Of a stretch of DNA of 13,309 bases, positions 1,793-12,606 are shown in pieces. The first letter of the stretch is position 1. Every line of letters starts with the position of its first letter. The notes beneath the pieces were generated by a model. The model saw nothing but the letters and a program-made list of their open reading frames with translations. It did not search any database and was not told where the DNA came from. A program made the position numbers and the translations under genes. Origin of the DNA: Pseudomonadota bacterium (GTDB lineage: Bacteria > Myxococcota > Bradymonadia > UBA4248); assembly GCA_017629415.1 (NCBI GenBank), contig JAGBXG010000417.1, forward strand, positions 1 to 13,309, read 5' to 3'.

Positions 1793-4630
1793 ATGAAACA
1801 CATCATTTTCTGGCTCATTCTCCTGGCCCTGCTTGCCATGAACCTCCTGGCATTCGGCCACTATATCTGGATGCCCGGCATCGATACTGTCGAATTCACG
1901 AATTTCGATATTATCACATGGCTCAATCAGCTCCCCTTGATCTCTTTGGCTGAACCGCAGACCATCATCCAATACTGTGCTTTTCATCTCCAATGGCTGG
2001 GACTGCTGGCATTTTGGCCTATACTCCTCATACCAGCCAGACATACCCTGTGCGATTTTCCACTTTGGCAACGCACTCTCAGTGCTTTCCTGCGTGTCGC
2101 CTTACTGGCATCCCTCACGCTTGCCATTGTCGATATCGAAAAAACATCCGAAACAAGCCTGGTTTCCATCATTTACGTCGTCGATGTCAGTCCTTCTGTA
2201 CCCGATGAAATGCTGAATGCAGCCCATGCTGAAATTACCGATGCCCTCAGCAAAAAATCCCCCGAAACCAACATTCAAATCGTCACATTCGCGGACAAAC
2301 CGCGCATCATGCCCATCCCCAGTGACGGCAAACTCCCGGCTTTCAACCGTCATATCCATGAAAATCAAAATTCGCCAGAAAACGTTCTTGTCCAACCCGA
2401 TACCGAACAACTCAACAATACCGAACAATCGGACAATGTCACCGATATCGAATCGGCTTTGCGTTTCAGCTATGCCCTATTCCCCGAAAATCATGTCCGT
2501 CGCATCGTTCTCTTAGGCGACGGCAACCAAACTCGAGGGGACGTTCTCTCCGAAGCAGCTCGCGCGCGCGCCCAAAATATCCGCATCGATGTCAAACATC
2601 TGGCGACATCCCCCGTTCGCGAAATCATGATTAAATCCCTTGATATCCGCGAACGTGACAACCTGCGCGTCGGCCAACCCTTCGAACTTACCCTTCAAAT
2701 CGAATCGACACACGAAACACAAACACAAATTACCGTTGAAAAAAATCAAATCACAGATCCCAAGCTTTCCCAAACGATCTCCCTTACACCGGGCGACAAT
2801 TTTATCACACTGACAACAGAAGCCGATGCCCCCGGAAAGCTCGATCTGAAATTTGCTCTTGCCGGCATTTCACCTCAAGACGATCGGTTTTTTGAAAATA
2901 ATACCCTCATCGATCAGCTCGATATCCTCGGAAAACCTAAAATTCTCTACATCGAACAAAATGCCTCCAATGCCAGTTATCTCGAACGTGCATTGGCGGG
3001 TTACGGCGAATCTCAAGGTCAAAACTTTGATGTTGAAGTCAGAACCGGCACCGGTTTGCCGACTTCGATGAAGGAAATGCTCAAATATTCTGCCATTATC
3101 CTCGGTGATGTGCCCAAAGAAACATCGAACGGACGTATCAACGTCACCTCCCAAAACATGAATCTCATTCAGGACTATGTTCGAAAACAAGGCGGCGGAT
3201 TCATTGCTTTAGGCGGCGAACAAGCTCTCGGTCCCGGCGGATACGAAAACACACCCATCGAAAAAATCCTCCCCGTCGAATTCAAAAACGAAACACCGCA
3301 AAAACAACAGTCTTCAGCCATTGCTCTCGTCATCGACAAATCCGGCTCCATGGGCGAAAATAGAAACCTTGAAATCGCCAAAGAAGCTGCAAAAGCCAGT
3401 GTTTCTGCCCTCAATCCTCAAGATCGCGTCGTCGTCATCGGATTTGACGATGCCCCTTACACCGTTGTTCCAGCCACTCGCGCGGTCAATCGATACAGCA
3501 TCAATGATAAAATCTCACGCATGCAACCAAATGGCGGCACAAATATCAAAGATGCCCTCGAAATGACCTATCTCGAACTGGCTATGGTCTCGGCCAAAAC
3601 AAAGCATGCCATCCTGCTCACCGACGGACGAAGTCCTTATTCTGGCATCGACGCACTCGTGCGCGAAATGGCAAGAGCCAAAATTACCGTATCAACCATC
3701 GCATTAAGCAACGCAGATACAACACTCCTGAGCCGTATTGCAAACCTTGGCAAAGGCCGTGCCTATATCGCCAAAGATGCAAACTCCGTCCCAAGACTTT
3801 CTGTCGAAGAAACCAATCGCGTTGCCAATCAAGCCGTTGTCGAAACCCCATTTACCCCCCAGGTCGCCAAATCCCATGACATGATTAAAGGTGTGACATT
3901 CCAAACCTTGCTCGGATATGTCGGCACCAAAGCAAAACCCGGTTCACAAACCATTCTGACCGCGCCTGGAGGTGCCCCCGTGCTCGCGCATTGGTCACTC
4001 GGTACTGGCAAAACAACGGTCTTTACAAGCGATGCCAAAAACAGATGGGCATCCGGCTGGATCCGACAATCCTCAAGCTTCTCAAAGTTCTGGGCACAAG
4101 TCGTCCGTGCCACCATGAAAACAGACGAAGAAACACAATTCGATATGATCGTACACCGCGAAAATGATCGCGTACGCATCATTGTCGATGCCATTTCCGA
4201 AAACGATACATTCCTGAACGGACTTGCCATTACAGCTGAAATCACACGGCCAGACGGACAGCCCATGACGCTCACTCTGCCGCAAACAGCCCCAGGGTTT
4301 TACGAAAATACTTTTGCATTACCCGCTTACGGCACTTACAGAGCTAAAGCAGAACTCATGCAAAATGGCGAATCTATCGGATTTGCCCAAAATACTTTCT
4401 CTTTCCCATACGCCCTCGAGTTTGCACAGCCTGAACCTGATTTTGCCTTGCTCGATGCCGTGGCACAAACCACAAATGGAAAAATTAATCCGGATTTCGA
4501 TACCACTGCCGATCCCGAAGGCATCAAAATCAAATCCTTTACCCCGATTTGGCATTATTTCCTGTTCGCAGCACTGGCGCTGCTCTTGCTCGATGTTTTC
4601 TTCCGACGAGTAAGACTAGCCAAACACTAA
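1793..4630 (+). CDS. Tandem VWA-domain membrane protein with glutamine-amidotransferase-like domain
   Basis: This is a 945-aa predicted inner-membrane protein. Hydrophobic segments at residues 4-22, 66-82 and 98-114 anchor the N-terminus, and one at 919-937 with a basic tail ends the protein. The first VWA domain (about 124-275) has a MIDAS-like set: DVSPS at 131, T217 and D243. A beta-rich linker follows, then a glutamine-amidotransferase-like fold (about 380-500). This has a GGGFIALGG segment but no Cys at the expected nucleophile turn, so it is probably non-catalytic. The second VWA domain (about 508-665) has a complete metal site: DKSGS at 515-519, T583 and D611. The architecture resembles BatA-like and GATase1-like VWA proteins, which bind partners rather than catalyse. 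Stop TAG at 1787-1789 leaves ATG 1793 as the first start, but no Shine-Dalgarno is evident. It appears monocistronic; no MoxR-type ATPase gene lies nearby. Confidence 0.92.
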   Translation: MKHIIFWLILLALLAMNLLAFGHYIWMPGIDTVEFTNFDIITWLNQLPLISLAEPQTIIQYCAFHLQWLGLLAFWPILLIPARHTLCDFPLWQRTLSAFLRVALLASLTLAIVDIEKTSETSLVSIIYVVDVSPSVPDEMLNAAHAEITDALSKKSPETNIQIVTFADKPRIMPIPSDGKLPAFNRHIHENQNSPENVLVQPDTEQLNNTEQSDNVTDIESALRFSYALFPENHVRRIVLLGDGNQTRGDVLSEAARARAQNIRIDVKHLATSPVREIMIKSLDIRERDNLRVGQPFELTLQIESTHETQTQITVEKNQITDPKLSQTISLTPGDNFITLTTEADAPGKLDLKFALAGISPQDDRFFENNTLIDQLDILGKPKILYIEQNASNASYLERALAGYGESQGQNFDVEVRTGTGLPTSMKEMLKYSAIILGDVPKETSNGRINVTSQNMNLIQDYVRKQGGGFIALGGEQALGPGGYENTPIEKILPVEFKNETPQKQQSSAIALVIDKSGSMGENRNLEIAKEAAKASVSALNPQDRVVVIGFDDAPYTVVPATRAVNRYSINDKISRMQPNGGTNIKDALEMTYLELAMVSAKTKHAILLTDGRSPYSGIDALVREMARAKITVSTIALSNADTTLLSRIANLGKGRAYIAKDANSVPRLSVEETNRVANQAVVETPFTPQVAKSHDMIKGVTFQTLLGYVGTKAKPGSQTILTAPGGAPVLAHWSLGTGKTTVFTSDAKNRWASGWIRQSSSFSKFWAQVVRATMKTDEETQFDMIVHRENDRVRIIVDAISENDTFLNGLAITAEITRPDGQPMTLTLPQTAPGFYENTFALPAYGTYRAKAELMQNGESIGFAQNTFSFPYALEFAQPEPDFALLDAVAQTTNGKINPDFDTTADPEGIKIKSFTPIWHYFLFAALALLLLDVFFRRVRLAKH

Positions 4631-4637
4631 ACTCCCC

Positions 4638-5010
4638 TTTTTGCTCGCCAGTTGGCGCACTTTCTTCGTCAACTGCGTTGCTCTGCTCAGTCACGTGCGC
4701 CAGCACGCTCCTTCGCTTCGCGCCTTGTTTCCTCGAATTTGCATCCAACTGGCGGCAAAAAGTTTTATGGTCACCAGTTGCCGCACTGTCTTCGGCTGCT
4801 GCGTCATTCCAGTCGGTCACGTGCGCTGGCACGCTCCCTCCTTTCATGCCTTGCTTCCTCGAAATCACATCCAAATGGCGGCAAAAAGTTTTATAGTCGC
4901 CGTTTGCCGCACTTTCTTCGGCTGCTGCATTGCTCTACTCACGTGCACCAGCATGTTCCTTCGCTTCGCGCCTTGTTTCCTCGAAATTGCATCCAACTGG
5001 CGGCAAAAAA
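4638..5010. repeat. Three 126-bp repeat units with inverted ends
   Basis: Anchors GCAC at 4657, 4783 and 4909 are 126 bp apart. The units differ at many positions; unit 3 has a 4-bp deletion around 4940. The array starts with TTTTTGCTCGCCAGTTGG and ends with CCAACTGGCGGCAAAAAA, which are near-perfect inverted repeats of each other. The same ends meet at each internal junction (CAACTGG at 4747-4753 against CCAGTTG at 4774-4780), so each unit has its own inverted ends. Each unit also holds a small GTGC-N4-GCAC/GCAT hairpin. The array begins directly after the VWA stop codon. Open frames through it are explained by the period being a multiple of three. Confidence 0.8.
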
Positions 5011-5182: not shown

Positions 5183-5187
5183 CGGGG

Positions 5188-5269
5188 TTTGGGGCGGAGC
5201 CCCAAAAGGAAAACTAGTGTTTGGGGCGGAGCCCCAAAAGAAAACTAGTGTTTGGGGCGGAGCCCCAAA
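5188..5269. repeat. Tandem 31-32 bp hairpin repeat, three copies
   Basis: TTTGGGGC-GGA-GCCCCAAA occurs at 5188-5206, 5220-5238 and 5251-5269, separated by AAGGAAAACTAGTG-like spacers, giving periods of 32 and 31 bp. The array ends 28 bp before the stop of the signal-peptidase-like gene on the minus strand, so transcripts of that operon would run into these hairpins. No T-run is present to make a clear terminator. Confidence 0.8.
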
Positions 5270-5296
5270 AGAACTTTGCATATGCCTAGCTGGCGC

Positions 5297-6490
5297 TCAT
5301 CTCAAATGCAGCCCGTATCTTTCAAAAGGCTGTTCATCTTGGGTGTTATAAATGACATAACGCGGCTGCCCTTTAATTTCGCTTTGATGCACGATGGAAC
5401 CATAAGTTGACCGTACACGATCGCGGCGCACTTCACGATTATCTTCAAGAACATAATAATAATCTTCTTCAAGCGTAATTGTGTTTGTTTGAGAAAACAG
5501 CAGCTGATTAGGCGCCAAAATGGGATACCATTTAGCGGGTTCATCCATATTTTCATTGAGTTCCATCAGATGTGGCAATTCATAAGTCAGAATAGCACGC
5601 TCATAAACGCCGTTTTCGGCTTGGTTATGCAGCTGTGTCAAGCTTTTGCCATTCACGGACGGCTGCACTCCGTGAAGCTGCACCTGGTCATGCGGTTTAG
5701 CAATAACACGGCCAAAAAATGCTCGTCTCCGAATGATATCGTTCTCTAAAACTTCTTCTTCAATAAAGACGAGTTCACCGTAATCCGGTTCATCAAACCA
5801 AAAAGCATGTCTGTCGACGAGTATGAGATCACCGCGCATCATGCCAGGCATCATGGTATCATTGCTCATCCAAGTCCGCTGAAAGATAAAATCAGACACG
5901 ACATAAAAAGCAAAACCAAACGGCAGCCAAAATGTCAGTATGGCCAAACTGAACTGTATCCAAGGTTCAATGGGGCGAACATCGAGCAGTTTGCAGACAA
6001 AAGTATGAACAAAACCAATGCCCCAAAAAACGACAATGAGCACGAAAAGGGTCACATACAGCGGCACAGGAAAAAATCCGATTTCCGCAGACAGGCCTGA
6101 GATCAGCAGAAGTGACACCGATATGGCAAGATTCATCACAATACCGTGCGAACGCTTCTTGCCTAAAAAAACGGCGGTTCCAGGAGATAGAAAAGCCGTA
6201 ACAGAGGCAGCAGTCATCAGACCAAGCTGTGCATGGGGATCCATTTCAACAGTGGGTGCTGCATAAAATCCTGCCTCCAACGCATCCCATTCAGCATCCA
6301 ATGCTGTTTCATGCATTTCGGCATCGTTCACATCATCCGAAAGTAAAGCTTCCGAATGACAATCCTTAAGCATTTCACTGTCATCCTCCCCTTGTTCGTG
6401 TACACCCATACCTTGAGACATGGCGGCATCTTGCGGTTCCGCCATGTCTTGAATTTGCGCGGATTCGGTAGAGTGACTCGAACAAGACAT
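5297..6490 (-). CDS. Signal peptidase I-like membrane protein, probably catalytically inactive
   Basis: This 397-aa product is the last gene of a four-gene operon, starting 11 nt after the murA stop; AGTAGG overlapping that stop may serve as its ribosome binding site. Residues 1-85 are acidic and Met-rich. About four membrane segments follow (near 92-110, 117-136, 142-165, 178-200), then a domain with signal peptidase I order: MMPGMMRGDLILVDR (box B, 213-227), YGELVF (box C, 237-242), GRVIAKPHD (box D, 260-268), VNGKSL (279-284) and YYYVLEDNR (box E, 344-352). In active enzymes box B has a nucleophilic Ser before Met-x-Pro and box D begins Lys-Arg. Here these positions are Thr212 and Gly260, and GDNR is EDNR. 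The fold assignment is fairly firm. Inactivity is an inference; Thr212 might act with Lys265 instead. It is longer than typical single enzymes because of the extra N-terminal region and membrane segments. Confidence 0.85.
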   Translation of the reverse strand: MSCSSHSTESAQIQDMAEPQDAAMSQGMGVHEQGEDDSEMLKDCHSEALLSDDVNDAEMHETALDAEWDALEAGFYAAPTVEMDPHAQLGLMTAASVTAFLSPGTAVFLGKKRSHGIVMNLAISVSLLLISGLSAEIGFFPVPLYVTLFVLIVVFWGIGFVHTFVCKLLDVRPIEPWIQFSLAILTFWLPFGFAFYVVSDFIFQRTWMSNDTMMPGMMRGDLILVDRHAFWFDEPDYGELVFIEEEVLENDIIRRRAFFGRVIAKPHDQVQLHGVQPSVNGKSLTQLHNQAENGVYERAILTYELPHLMELNENMDEPAKWYPILAPNQLLFSQTNTITLEEDYYYVLEDNREVRRDRVRSTYGSIVHQSEIKGQPRYVIYNTQDEQPFERYGLHLR

Positions 6491-6501: not shown

Positions 6502-7791
6502 CTACTTAATGATCTGTCGTTCGATATGTGCCCCAAGGCTTCTCAGTTTTTCGTCCACGCGTTCGTAACCGCGATCGATCTGTCGAACGTTATAAATGGT
6601 GGACTGGCCTTCGGCGGTAAGTGCGGCAATGAGTAATGCCATACCAGCACGAACATCGGGAGACTCCAGACGCGTACCCAAAAGTTTGCTTTTACCAACG
6701 ACAACAACGCGGTGCGGATCACACAGAATAATCTGAGCACCCATAGAAACGAGCGAATCCACAAAGAACATGCGGCCTTCAAACATCTTTTCAAAAAAGA
6801 TGACAGTACCTTCACACTGTGTGGCAATGGTAATCGCAATACTCATCAGATCGGTCGGGAAAGCCGGCCATGGCGCATCATCAATCTTGGGAATGGCATT
6901 GTGCAAATCGGCACGAATCCGCATTTCCTGATTTCCGGGTACGATAATGCCATTGCCGTCCGGAATAATTTTAATGCCGAGCTTTTCGAACACCATACGA
7001 ATCATGCGCATATCCGTCATGCGGACATTTTCGATACGGATTTCAGAGCCTGTCGCAGCTGCCAAACCAATGTATGAGCCTATTTCCAAGTAATCGGAAC
7101 CAATCGTATGCTCAGTACCATGCAAACCGCCGGTACCATGTATGGTCAAAGTATTTGAACCAATACCATCGATATGCGCCCCCATTTGGCTCAGCATGCG
7201 GCACAATCCTTCCACATGAGGCTCGCAGGCGACATTGCGGAAAACCGTCTTACCTCTGGCAAGCACAGCCGCCATCACGGCATTTTCAGTCGCCGTCACG
7301 GAAGGTTCATCGAAAAAAATATCGCTGCCAGTTAAATATTTGGCATTGAGATGATAGGCGCTGCCAATATCGATATCGCTGCCAAGACCTTGAAACGCGA
7401 GAAAGTGCGTATCCAGTCTGCGTCGCCCGATGACATCGCCACCCGGAGGCGGAAGATGGACTTCGTGATGTCTGGCAAGCATGGGACCGGCAAAAAGAAT
7501 GGAAGCACGAACTTTTTTGCAAAGGTCTTCGCTTAAAGAAGTCTTGTTCACACCGGCGCCGCAAAGTCTCACACTGTTATCAGCAAAAAAAGCTGCCTCA
7601 CCGCCGAGATCGCGAATGATTTCCATCATGACCTCAACGTCTTTGATGCGTGGAACGTTATGTAAAATGACTTCTTCGGAAGTCAAAAGACTGGCCGCCA
7701 AAGCGGGAAGCACCTCGTTTTTGTTGCCGCCAGGCGTGAGCGTCCCGCTCAGCTTATGGCCGCCTTCGATGACGAATCTTTCCATGTTCAT
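6502..7791 (-). CDS. murA: UDP-N-acetylglucosamine 1-carboxyvinyltransferase MurA
   Basis: This cytoplasmic enzyme transfers enolpyruvate from PEP to UDP-GlcNAc, the first committed step of peptidoglycan synthesis. The 429-aa product is full length for the family. Visible hallmarks are GGNKN (Lys24 and Asn25, matching E. coli Lys22 and Asn23), the [10 protein letters not shown] helix, the PPGGD loop at 115-119, FPTDLMS with the catalytic Asp, DVRAGMA carrying the conserved Arg, and [10 protein letters not shown] near the end. In the loop, Asp119 replaces the Cys that fosfomycin alkylates in most bacteria. ATG 7791 overlaps the upstream stop as ATGA, suggesting translational coupling. ATG 7785, two codons later, has AGGAAGG 6 nt upstream and gives MERFVIEGG, which aligns better with family N-termini, so either start is possible. 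It lies in an operon with a DUF2058-like gene and the signal-peptidase homologue. Confidence 0.96.
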
Positions 7792-9411: not shown

Positions 9412-12400
9412 ATGAACAAACGATTTCTTTTTAGCCTTCTCGGCGCATTGACAGTCCTCGCCGGCTGCTCAGACGATTCGGTTCCAGGCGTGTCTCTCAA
9501 AACCCCATGCGAGACAGAAGGCGCCACTTCATGCAGCGCGATTGGCGAACTTCTCGTCTGCACCAACGGCTTTTTTGAACCCCAGGCTTGCGCCGAAAAT
9601 GAGCGGTGCCGCGTCGAAACTGACGGCGCAACATGCGCAGAAGCCTGCATTCCTGAACAATTCCCAATCAGCTGCAGCGGCGAAGAAGGTATCCGCACAT
9701 GCGATTCCAACGGATTTGTCAAAGTCGAACCATGCGAAACCGGCAATATTTGCCATGATGCCATGTGTATCGACGAAAGCCGGACAACATGCGACAACAC
9801 CTATCTCACACAATGCCGCGATGATGAAATCGTCACCGAATGCAAAAACGGATGGGTTGTCAGCCATCTGTGCGAAGAAGGCAAAGTCTGCAATAATGGA
9901 CTCTGTGTACTCCCAGAATCCTGCGACAGCACCACACATATCCTCAGCTGCGCCGACCAAAACACCATCAGAGCATGCCAGAACGACCTTATCGTCAATA
10001 TCAAATGCGGCGAAGACAAATTCTGTGACAACGGTGAATGCGTCAAAGATACCGCATGCAATGAAAAAACATTTACACTTGTCTGTACCTCAGAAAATGC
10101 CGTAGAAACATGTGTCTATGAACACAAAACCGTGACAAACTGCAATGCCGGTGAAATCTGTGAAAACGGCGTTTGCCAATCCCTCGATGAACCGTGCACC
10201 GAAGAAGGCGCCGTGACCTGCGATTCCGCCAACATCACCAAAACATGCAAAGACGGCGTATGGCACAAAAGTTATTGCAATGTCGGCACCGAAGTCTGCA
10301 TCGACGGTGTCTGCTCCGATAAATCTACCGCCACCGTATGCATCGAAAATTCATACGCCCCAAGATGCGATGTCAACGCCACATTGACTTGCGAATTCGG
10401 CTATGTCGTCAAACGCGAATGCACCGCCAACCAACACTGCGATGCCGGTATTTGCTATGACAATATTCAAGAAGGCGATGTCTGCGATGAAACCACATTT
10501 GTCCAGCAATGTTTCGACGACGGTTTCGTTGCCGTTTGTGTGAACGGCACGGTCACCAAAGTCACATGCGGAGAACAACGCTGCCAAGCAGGCGCATGCG
10601 TGAACAAAGCTTGTAATACCACCACATTCACCCCGGAATGCCGCGGCCATTTTGAAGTCACGGCATGCGTTGATCATGCGGTCACCAAAGTCAACTGCGA
10701 ACCCAATACACATTGCGTCGATGGCACTTGCATACCCGATGCAAATCCCGGCGATCCCTGCAATCCTGAAACCTTTACAACGACATGTAGTTCTGAGGGC
10801 AAAGTTCTGAGCTGCGAAACTCAAGACGGCGTTTCCACCATCGTCGCCACAGAATGCACCGGCAATAAAGCCGTCTGCTTCAATGGCGCATGTGTGGCCT
10901 GCAATCCCAACACCTATACCCAAACCTGTACACCGTCAGAATCCTCCACAACAGGTCCTCTCAAAACATCTTGCAATCCAGATGGTACCTTAAACCCTGA
11001 ACTTTGTCCCATCGGTTCCGTATGTTTGGGAACAGAATGCGCGCAATGCAATCCTGCCACATCCAAACCCGGATGCCTCAATGCAACAACGGCTCAGCTT
11101 TGCAAAGCTGACGGCTCATTTGAAAACAAAGCATGCAACGCCGGCGAACAATGCCTCGAAGGCACCGGTTGTACAACTGCCTGTGACAGCAATGGCCAGT
11201 GCGCCGCAGACCACTATGTCTGTGTCGCCGGTCTCTGTGTTTTCCAACCAGAATGTACCACCAGCTCTACCCCCATCTGTCACGATGAAAAAAGCCATAA
11301 AATCTGCCAGGCTCCCGGTATCTATTCCACACCAACCCCCTGCAAAAGCAACGAAAAATGTGAAAATGGGGTCTGCGTTGGAAACGAATGCGACAGTAAT
11401 ACCTACGGCACCCAATGTGACGGCAAATCCCCAACCACTTGCGTCAACGGCTATATTGTCAAAAATACCGCATGCTCAGGCAATACACCTTACTGCGTTG
11501 ATGGCACATGCAAAGCCTGTAAACATGGCGAAACTGCCATTCAATGCTCCGGCAACACCGCCATCATCTGCGCCCCCAATCACACACTGACAACACAAGC
11601 TTGCGCCAATAACGAAGTCTGCAAGCCCGTCGAAGGTTGCGTCAGCAAATGCCCAGGCTTCACAGGCGACTCATGCAATGCAGACGGCAACCGCGTCTAT
11701 TGCGCAGACAACGGCAGTACAGCCATCGAAGTCTGCGATTTCACCGAAACATGCATCGCCGGCACTTGCACAGACCGCACAGGTAATGTTTGCAACAGAG
11801 AAATCTATCAAAACACCTGCCATGCAACGCCTTATGGCTCTGCACTCGAATACTGCCATCCCACGCTCGGTGTGCAGTTCAGAACTTGCACCACATCCGG
11901 GTCATCCACGAACTTCTGCGGCACCATTAACGGCGAAACTGACTGCTTCCAGCGCTGCACTGCTGCCGAGACAAACCCGATATGCGGATACTTCAATCAG
12001 GATTTGCTTGAGAACAACTATGCCATGGGGGTTTGCACCGCAGGTACCGATCATACCGGCAATCAAGCTTACGGTTATCTCCCCAAACTTGGGGTCTGCC
12101 GCGAATACGGCGACAGCACCATCCTCTATTCCAGTTCATGCTATCACACCGGCTCCACCGTCGAATTCAAAACCTTTGTCTGTGAATCCATGGGACGCGG
12201 TACTTGTGATGCCACTTCCGGCGCTTGCACAGGCGCTGTCGAATGCAACGACACAGATACCAGATGCGATGGCCTGACCGCAAAATCCTGCGAATACGAT
12301 CCCGCACTCCAAAAGAATGTCCTTCTCAGCATGGATTGCAGCAATCTCGGCGATAAAGCTTGCGTCACCTATACCGTCAAAGGAAACAAACGTGCTGTCT

Positions 12401-12606
12401 GCAAAGGCACAGAAACTTACAACAATGTCACGCCGGCTTACAGCGTCTCTTCATTGGGCACATGCAATGCGGACGGCAAAAATGCCAATATCCTCCACAC
12501 CCTGCATTACCTTTCGTCCAACCACTTCGGTTTCTACAGCACAGGTTGTGCCGCTGGCTGTGAAACAAAGACAGAAAACGGCATCACATTCTCGTACTGC
12601 AAATAA
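9412..12606 (+). CDS. Large cysteine-repeat lipoprotein, about 18-20 six-Cys units
   Basis: This 1064-aa secreted lipoprotein starts at 9412, with AAGGA 7 nt upstream and a clear signal: MNKRFLF, a hydrophobic core and lipobox LAGC (Cys19). From residue 32 it is a chain of 40-50-aa units. Each has roughly C-x(6-8)-C-x(7-9)-C-x(8-10)-C-x(5-6)-C-x(4)-C, typically beginning CN/CD plus a TF/TY pair and ending in VC-x-NG-x-C or similar. Units diverge in sequence while the cysteines stay. From about residue 850 the spacing loosens into an irregular Cys-rich C-terminus ending FSYCK. No catalytic motif, LPXTG or MYXO-CTERM-type anchor is seen. Similar Cys-rich repeat lipoproteins are frequent in Myxococcota and Bradymonadales. 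The even cysteine pattern suggests a disulfide-bonded rod on the outer surface. It is transcribed alone, with hairpins downstream; the ligand or role is unknown. Confidence 0.93.
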   Translation: MNKRFLFSLLGALTVLAGCSDDSVPGVSLKTPCETEGATSCSAIGELLVCTNGFFEPQACAENERCRVETDGATCAEACIPEQFPISCSGEEGIRTCDSNGFVKVEPCETGNICHDAMCIDESRTTCDNTYLTQCRDDEIVTECKNGWVVSHLCEEGKVCNNGLCVLPESCDSTTHILSCADQNTIRACQNDLIVNIKCGEDKFCDNGECVKDTACNEKTFTLVCTSENAVETCVYEHKTVTNCNAGEICENGVCQSLDEPCTEEGAVTCDSANITKTCKDGVWHKSYCNVGTEVCIDGVCSDKSTATVCIENSYAPRCDVNATLTCEFGYVVKRECTANQHCDAGICYDNIQEGDVCDETTFVQQCFDDGFVAVCVNGTVTKVTCGEQRCQAGACVNKACNTTTFTPECRGHFEVTACVDHAVTKVNCEPNTHCVDGTCIPDANPGDPCNPETFTTTCSSEGKVLSCETQDGVSTIVATECTGNKAVCFNGACVACNPNTYTQTCTPSESSTTGPLKTSCNPDGTLNPELCPIGSVCLGTECAQCNPATSKPGCLNATTAQLCKADGSFENKACNAGEQCLEGTGCTTACDSNGQCAADHYVCVAGLCVFQPECTTSSTPICHDEKSHKICQAPGIYSTPTPCKSNEKCENGVCVGNECDSNTYGTQCDGKSPTTCVNGYIVKNTACSGNTPYCVDGTCKACKHGETAIQCSGNTAIICAPNHTLTTQACANNEVCKPVEGCVSKCPGFTGDSCNADGNRVYCADNGSTAIEVCDFTETCIAGTCTDRTGNVCNREIYQNTCHATPYGSALEYCHPTLGVQFRTCTTSGSSTNFCGTINGETDCFQRCTAAETNPICGYFNQDLLENNYAMGVCTAGTDHTGNQAYGYLPKLGVCREYGDSTILYSSSCYHTGSTVEFKTFVCESMGRGTCDATSGACTGAVECNDTDTRCDGLTAKSCEYDPALQKNVLLSMDCSNLGDKACVTYTVKGNKRAVCKGTETYNNVTPAYSVSSLGTCNADGKNANILHTLHYLSSNHFGFYSTGCAAGCETKTENGITFSYCK

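Follow-up and report, generated by a model that had tools for sequence, protein, structure and literature searches.

A family of type I signal peptidase homologues lacking the catalytic Ser-Lys dyad, with a possible non-cutting role

The signal peptidase-like protein and its parts

The gene described here lies on the minus strand of contig JAGBXG010000417.1 (GenBank assembly GCA_017629415.1), the whole 13,309-nucleotide stretch of which was analysed and is referred to as the window. Its product is a member of the S26 superfamily in both ancestry and fold, with both the Pfam profile Peptidase_S26 (45.1 bits against a cut-off of 22.9, E 1.4e-11) and the NCBIfam model TIGR02227, signal peptidase I (54.0 bits against a cut-off of 47), matching above their curated cut-offs and far above chance, and its predicted fold matches that of LepB from residue 202, with the beta fold of type I signal peptidases. 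Despite this descent and fold, the protein as judged from its sequence is not a signal peptidase by the defining feature, the Ser-Lys dyad, in place of which it has Thr212 and Gly260. Solved structures searched with the single sequence gave weak matches, all to Escherichia coli signal peptidase (E 0.055-0.26); SipA of Streptococcus pyogenes, considered below, was absent among the sequence matches of that search. The features of the gene are as follows.

5297..6490, minus strand: pseudo-signal peptidase open reading frame, 397 amino acids, intact, ATG at 6490
5348..5932, minus strand: S26-like domain, residues 187-381, from the TIGR02227 match and the fold match; predicted to lie outside the cytoplasm
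5846..5869, minus strand: equivalent of box B, MSNDTMMP, residues 208-215, with Thr212 (5855-5857) in place of the catalytic serine
5711..5713, minus strand: codon of Gly260 at the position of the catalytic lysine, box D FFGRVIA, from the DNA and the alignment
5435..5446, minus strand: equivalent of box E, EDNR, residues 349-352, with Glu349 in place of a glycine whose role is to pack against the catalytic lysine
5885..6154, minus strand: residues 113-137, 142-165 and 175-202, predicted by the structure model to form three long membrane helices
6239..6490, minus strand: residues 1-84, an N-terminal acidic tail that carries the motif FYAAPTVE (PTVE, 6245-6256), from sequence and model

A sequence-only reading of the window had recognised the signal peptidase I boxes and placed Thr212 and Gly260 at the nucleophile and general-base positions, and this is borne out both by the window DNA, which encodes threonine at 5855-5857 and glycine at 5711-5713, and by the LepB alignment control described below. 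The altered box E was likewise found, reading LEDNR and then EVRRDRVRS; the packing role of the box-E glycine is that given in PMC4049620. The extra acidic N-terminal region has a net charge of -14 over residues 1-60, as that reading had led one to expect, and residues 1-58 were modelled with a pLDDT (predicted local distance difference test) below 50. Since the model adds a further short helix (residues 85-99) ahead of an SPGT break and a low-confidence helix (residues 60-77) to the three long ones, the proposed number of about four membrane segments is roughly right. Asn210 occupies a column that holds serine or threonine in canonical LepBs and that presumably has an oxyanion role.

Catalytic positions across the family

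The window protein was aligned with 29 homologues, among them P0001 with 99% identity to it. Over these 30 rows the nucleophile site is threonine in 20, asparagine in five, serine in four and alanine in one, and the general-base site is glycine in 24, alanine in five and serine in one, with lysine in none. In a relative beyond these rows (L091, the same gene as in L137) the Ser site is arginine. The dyad is thus absent from the orthologues as well, but the pair threonine and glycine is not always kept. Altogether 38 columns are invariant, including Asn210 and Glu349-Asp350-Asn351-Arg352 (30/30 rows), and none of them is Ser, Lys, His or Cys. The PTVE motif of the acidic tail (mostly YxxPTVE) occurs in 19 of the 30 rows and is possibly a candidate phosphothreonine site.

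A profile of the 30 rows matched 47 of the 57 genomes of the class at E ≤ 0.001, the weakest of these matches possibly being other S26 proteins, and loci were fetched for the 40 best-scoring of the 47 genomes, one family protein being read in each. The class, which belongs to the Myxococcota, is inferred to be Bradymonadia because a 28-row profile matches proteins of Persicimonas caeni and Bradymonas sediminis (those of G021 and G009), both of which are named signal peptidase I in public records and lack Ser and Lys at the two sites. None of the 40 loci has lysine at the Lys site, and the Ser site is alanine in 16, serine in eight, threonine in six, asparagine in five, glycine in three, arginine in one and valine in one. 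In a combined alignment containing 43 family rows (the window protein, the 40 loci, L208 and L209), the equivalents of Arg146, Asp273 and Arg275 are retained in 43/43. The best S26 matches of 50 of the 57 class genomes are LepBs, and in the same alignment all 50 have Ser and Lys in the two columns; misaligned boxes are therefore unlikely, though the family row L165 and the non-family row L249 align poorly near the Lys site.

The sequence-only reading had also raised the alternative that the protein is still a protease, using an unconventional catalytic pair such as Thr212 and Lys265. Both residues are present in the window protein, and some relatives have serine at the nucleophile site (the four rows and eight loci counted above), but Thr212 is found in 20, Lys265 in eight and the two jointly in only five of the 30 rows, one of the five being P0001. 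Close relatives show Asn, Ala or Arg at the former position and Cys, Leu, Arg or Met at that of Lys265, and with no Ser, Lys, His or Cys invariant in the alignment, a surviving protease of this kind is very improbable.

The murA gene of the window is 85-92% identical to murA of seven metagenome-assembled genomes (L001-L007), four of which are labelled ruminant gut, and all seven have one window-type protein per genome. In the relatives the family usually coexists with an intact LepB encoded elsewhere: of the 40 genomes in which a family protein was read, 36 also yielded such an enzyme. No LepB of the set was read in G006, G014, G032 and G048, though a shorter protein that does have Ser and Lys (L245) was seen in G014. 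This coexistence, together with the predicted fold common to both proteins, would suit a subunit that regulates the LepB of the same genome or serves as a decoy for it, pairing with the enzyme or capturing its substrates and altering what is cut. However, the two genes lie apart where they share a listed contig (about 24 kb in G011), and the recurrent neighbours are an ABC (ATP-binding cassette) exporter and a TPR protein instead, so that a subunit of LepB appears distinctly unlikely.

Remodelling of box E and selection

Box E was tallied in an alignment of 166 S26 rows that covers every type. Its glycine is present in 56 of the 57 rows with the catalytic lysine, the sole exception being L249, a short protein that aligns poorly, and is replaced in 93 of the 109 rows without lysine. 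When the 29 database rows are left out, five of which near-duplicate fetched loci and one the window protein, it is replaced in 64 of 80 rows lacking lysine.

The ratio of non-synonymous to synonymous substitution rates (dN/dS, method NG86) was 0.014-0.15 for the five pairs of closest sequences, of which four come from a single group of four near relatives. Five pairs lying further apart gave 0.14-0.41, but with dS above 1 these values are unreliable. Purifying selection acts in the close pairs tested. A decaying pseudogene or functionless gene might be supposed from the loss of the catalytic residues and from a divergence faster than that of murA (about 48% against 92% identity to the same relative), but is rejected for the pairs tested because their dN/dS is far below 1. 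An internal stop, a TAG in G030, was seen in just one among the matches listed, and the 38 invariant columns and the matches in 47 of 57 class genomes also speak against decay, which is scarcely credible as an explanation. The earlier proposal of a pseudoprotease kept for another purpose is, on the other hand, well supported by the family-wide loss of the dyad, the LepB controls and dN/dS.

Gene neighbourhood

On the minus strand of the window the order is lipoprotein, DUF2058, murA and the pseudo-signal peptidase gene, whose ATG lies 11 bp beyond the murA stop.

6502..7791, minus strand: murA, 11 bp upstream of the pseudo-signal peptidase gene; adjacency not conserved

The gene had been described as the last of a murA run with a possible part in envelope assembly. 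The order is right in the window, but the role based on murA fails as a general feature, since the gene is found downstream of murA in 0/5 relatives having at least 2.3 kb of sequence there and other neighbourhoods recur instead. Relatives of the DUF2058 gene and of the lipoprotein gene are each found upstream of murA in 5/7.

At the 32 non-gut loci a divergent gene for a multi-membrane TPR protein lies within 650 bp upstream in 20 and within 3 kb in 23, and a same-strand ABC exporter gene within 300 bp downstream in 17, a second ABC exporter gene being next in 15 of those 17. The upstream TPR membrane protein was suspected by eye to be an O-antigen ligase, but no ligase family matched. At the eight gut loci, where three contigs end within 650 bp upstream of the family gene, a CBM9-like protein precedes it in five, and in four the genes after it encode a semialdehyde dehydrogenase and an outer-membrane barrel protein. 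The window resembles neither arrangement. From the exporter gene directly downstream and the divergent TPR gene upstream, as well as the variability of the former Ser site, it could be argued that the S26 domain has lost all peptide binding and serves as a structural component of a complex in the membrane that includes these two proteins; neither neighbour, however, was found beside the eight gut members or adjoins the gene in the window, and this explanation is considered unlikely. There was no sortase or pilin among the annotated neighbours, only some of the neighbours being annotated.

Elsewhere in the window there are a 945-residue protein with VWA and glutamine-amidotransferase-like domains (1793-4630) and a cysteine-rich repeat protein of 1064 residues (9412-12606) that begins like a lipoprotein and matches no Pfam family at E 0.01. 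Tandem repeats of 67 bp (3.6 copies, 1-240), 126 bp (2.9 copies, 4645-5009) and 31 bp (2.8 copies, 5187-5273) were also found, the latter two arrays lying just past the end of the pseudo-signal peptidase gene.

Evolutionary relatedness and other S26 proteins

For comparison outside the class, 20 S26 regions were picked from among the matches listed and read, two of which, L208 (G052) and L209 (G055), turned out to be class members. Of the 18 out-of-class proteins, L200, L203 and L204 retain Ser and Lys, and the other 15 are without Lys. In a first tree of 78 rows, made by a careful method and with weak deep branches, the family rows were not grouped as one clade, and a starred branch (97/97) split 12 rows, namely six LepBs, the Lys-keepers L200, L203 and L204, and the Lys-less L201, L212 and L217, from the other 66. 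A second tree, made by a quick method from 58 of the 78 rows, dropped the six short paralogues, OL198, OL199, OL212, OL216, OL205, OL214, L135, L160, L162, L163, L169, P0019, P0027 and P0029; in it the 40 family rows stand on one side of a branch with a support of 94, which is not starred. To judge from the sequences, a single ancient loss of catalysis at the origin of the family is possible or likely, and the degenerate S26 lines outside the class suggest further losses.

Gut relatives have a second, shorter S26 paralogue of about 240-300 residues (L087, L088, L089, L090, L096, L098 and L248), with leucine at the Lys site in 7/7, alanine (five), aspartate (one) or serine (one) at the Ser site, and GDNR retained; from these residues it too is apparently dead. 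A third S26 type in other class genomes (L246, L247, L250-L261) has arginine at the Lys site, a mostly RGNTMAPN-like box B, LRRVL or similar in box D, and CDNR or CDHR in box E. The out-of-class protein L201 has Ser and His at the two sites, a pairing used by the eukaryotic type. In L083 (1-972) and L085 (1-1014) a canonical LepB directly follows the gene of a zinc-ribbon protein with FHA-like domains, as seen by eye.

Comparison with known systems and proposed function

Inactive signal peptidase I homologues, SipA and SpsA, are known in Gram-positives (PMC4049620, PMC12445088). SipA (Spy0127) of Streptococcus pyogenes (PDB 4n31, 4k8w) shares with the window protein the loss of Ser and Lys and a replaced box-E glycine, the equivalent there being Asn140, which its authors attribute to the absent lysine; according to PMC4049620, SipA sits in a Gram-positive pilus gene cluster and has a small cap domain, whereas the window protein has three to four predicted membrane helices and an acidic tail, with neither sortase nor pilin among the annotated neighbours. 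SpsA of Staphylococcus aureus is likewise an inactive paralogue beside an active enzyme (PMC12445088), in a Gram-positive host unlike that of the window protein, and this likeness is drawn by description. A parallel was also considered with the ABC transporter by which S. aureus can bypass signal peptidase (PMC5013292). With LepB the window protein shares the fold, the order of boxes, the MxP of box B and the equivalents of Arg146, Asp273 and Arg275, but it differs in lacking both catalytic residues, in the replaced box-E glycine and in a longer membrane part; the DSR of box E of LepB was not seen by eye in the gut lineage. The multi-membrane S26 proteins L200, L203 and L204 of other Myxococcota have a PGLG-type N-terminal membrane region, similar by eye, in front of an S26 domain, and unlike the window protein they retain Ser and Lys. 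No description of an inactive S26 family of this kind was recognised in searches of open-access papers.

Since Lys is lost throughout, Ser is mostly lost and the site is remodelled, a mode of working like that of SipA is the most likely, and by this analogy the window protein, one of an old family, would be a type I signal peptidase homologue that has lost catalysis and acts as a non-cutting holder or scaffold, a reading to which we assign a probability of roughly 0.6. Three to four membrane helices would anchor the protein, and the S26 beta domain would project from the membrane as in LepB and would hold, uncut, an exported polypeptide or a partner from an envelope export or assembly machine, either within what was once the peptide cleft or next to it. 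Candidate partners of such a scaffold would be LepB, an exported substrate or, in loci outside the gut lineage, the exporter and the TPR protein. Holding and not cutting is probable because the family is Lys-less in 40 genomes, most of which also have a normal enzyme.

Several points weigh against this interpretation. The retention of Ser in 8/40 family loci means that loss of the nucleophile is incomplete, and 16 Lys-less rows retain the box-E glycine, including all six short gut paralogues in the alignment group; because the aligned rows are related, these numbers do not represent independent events. Few pairs entered the dN/dS comparison, the five closest include no gut-lineage pair and the window gene is outside the tested pairs. 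Gene context does not reveal the partner, since the neighbourhood varies between the gut lineage, the rest of the class and the window. SipA tolerated a mutation intended to block its cleft (PMC4049620), and binding in the cleft is therefore unproven even in SipA.

A wider proposal, which is put forward tentatively and is rather doubtful, is that one ancestral loss of catalysis made a multi-membrane signal peptidase into a subunit that holds chains without cutting them, in an export system specific to the class that also comprises the adjoining ABC exporter and multi-membrane TPR protein, and that this subunit has been kept class-wide and misnamed signal peptidase I. The curated model TIGR02227 accepts the window protein as signal peptidase I despite the missing catalytic residues. 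A class-wide Gram-negative family with the signal peptidase fold but without cutting would give a clean system in which to study what this fold does when it does not cut.
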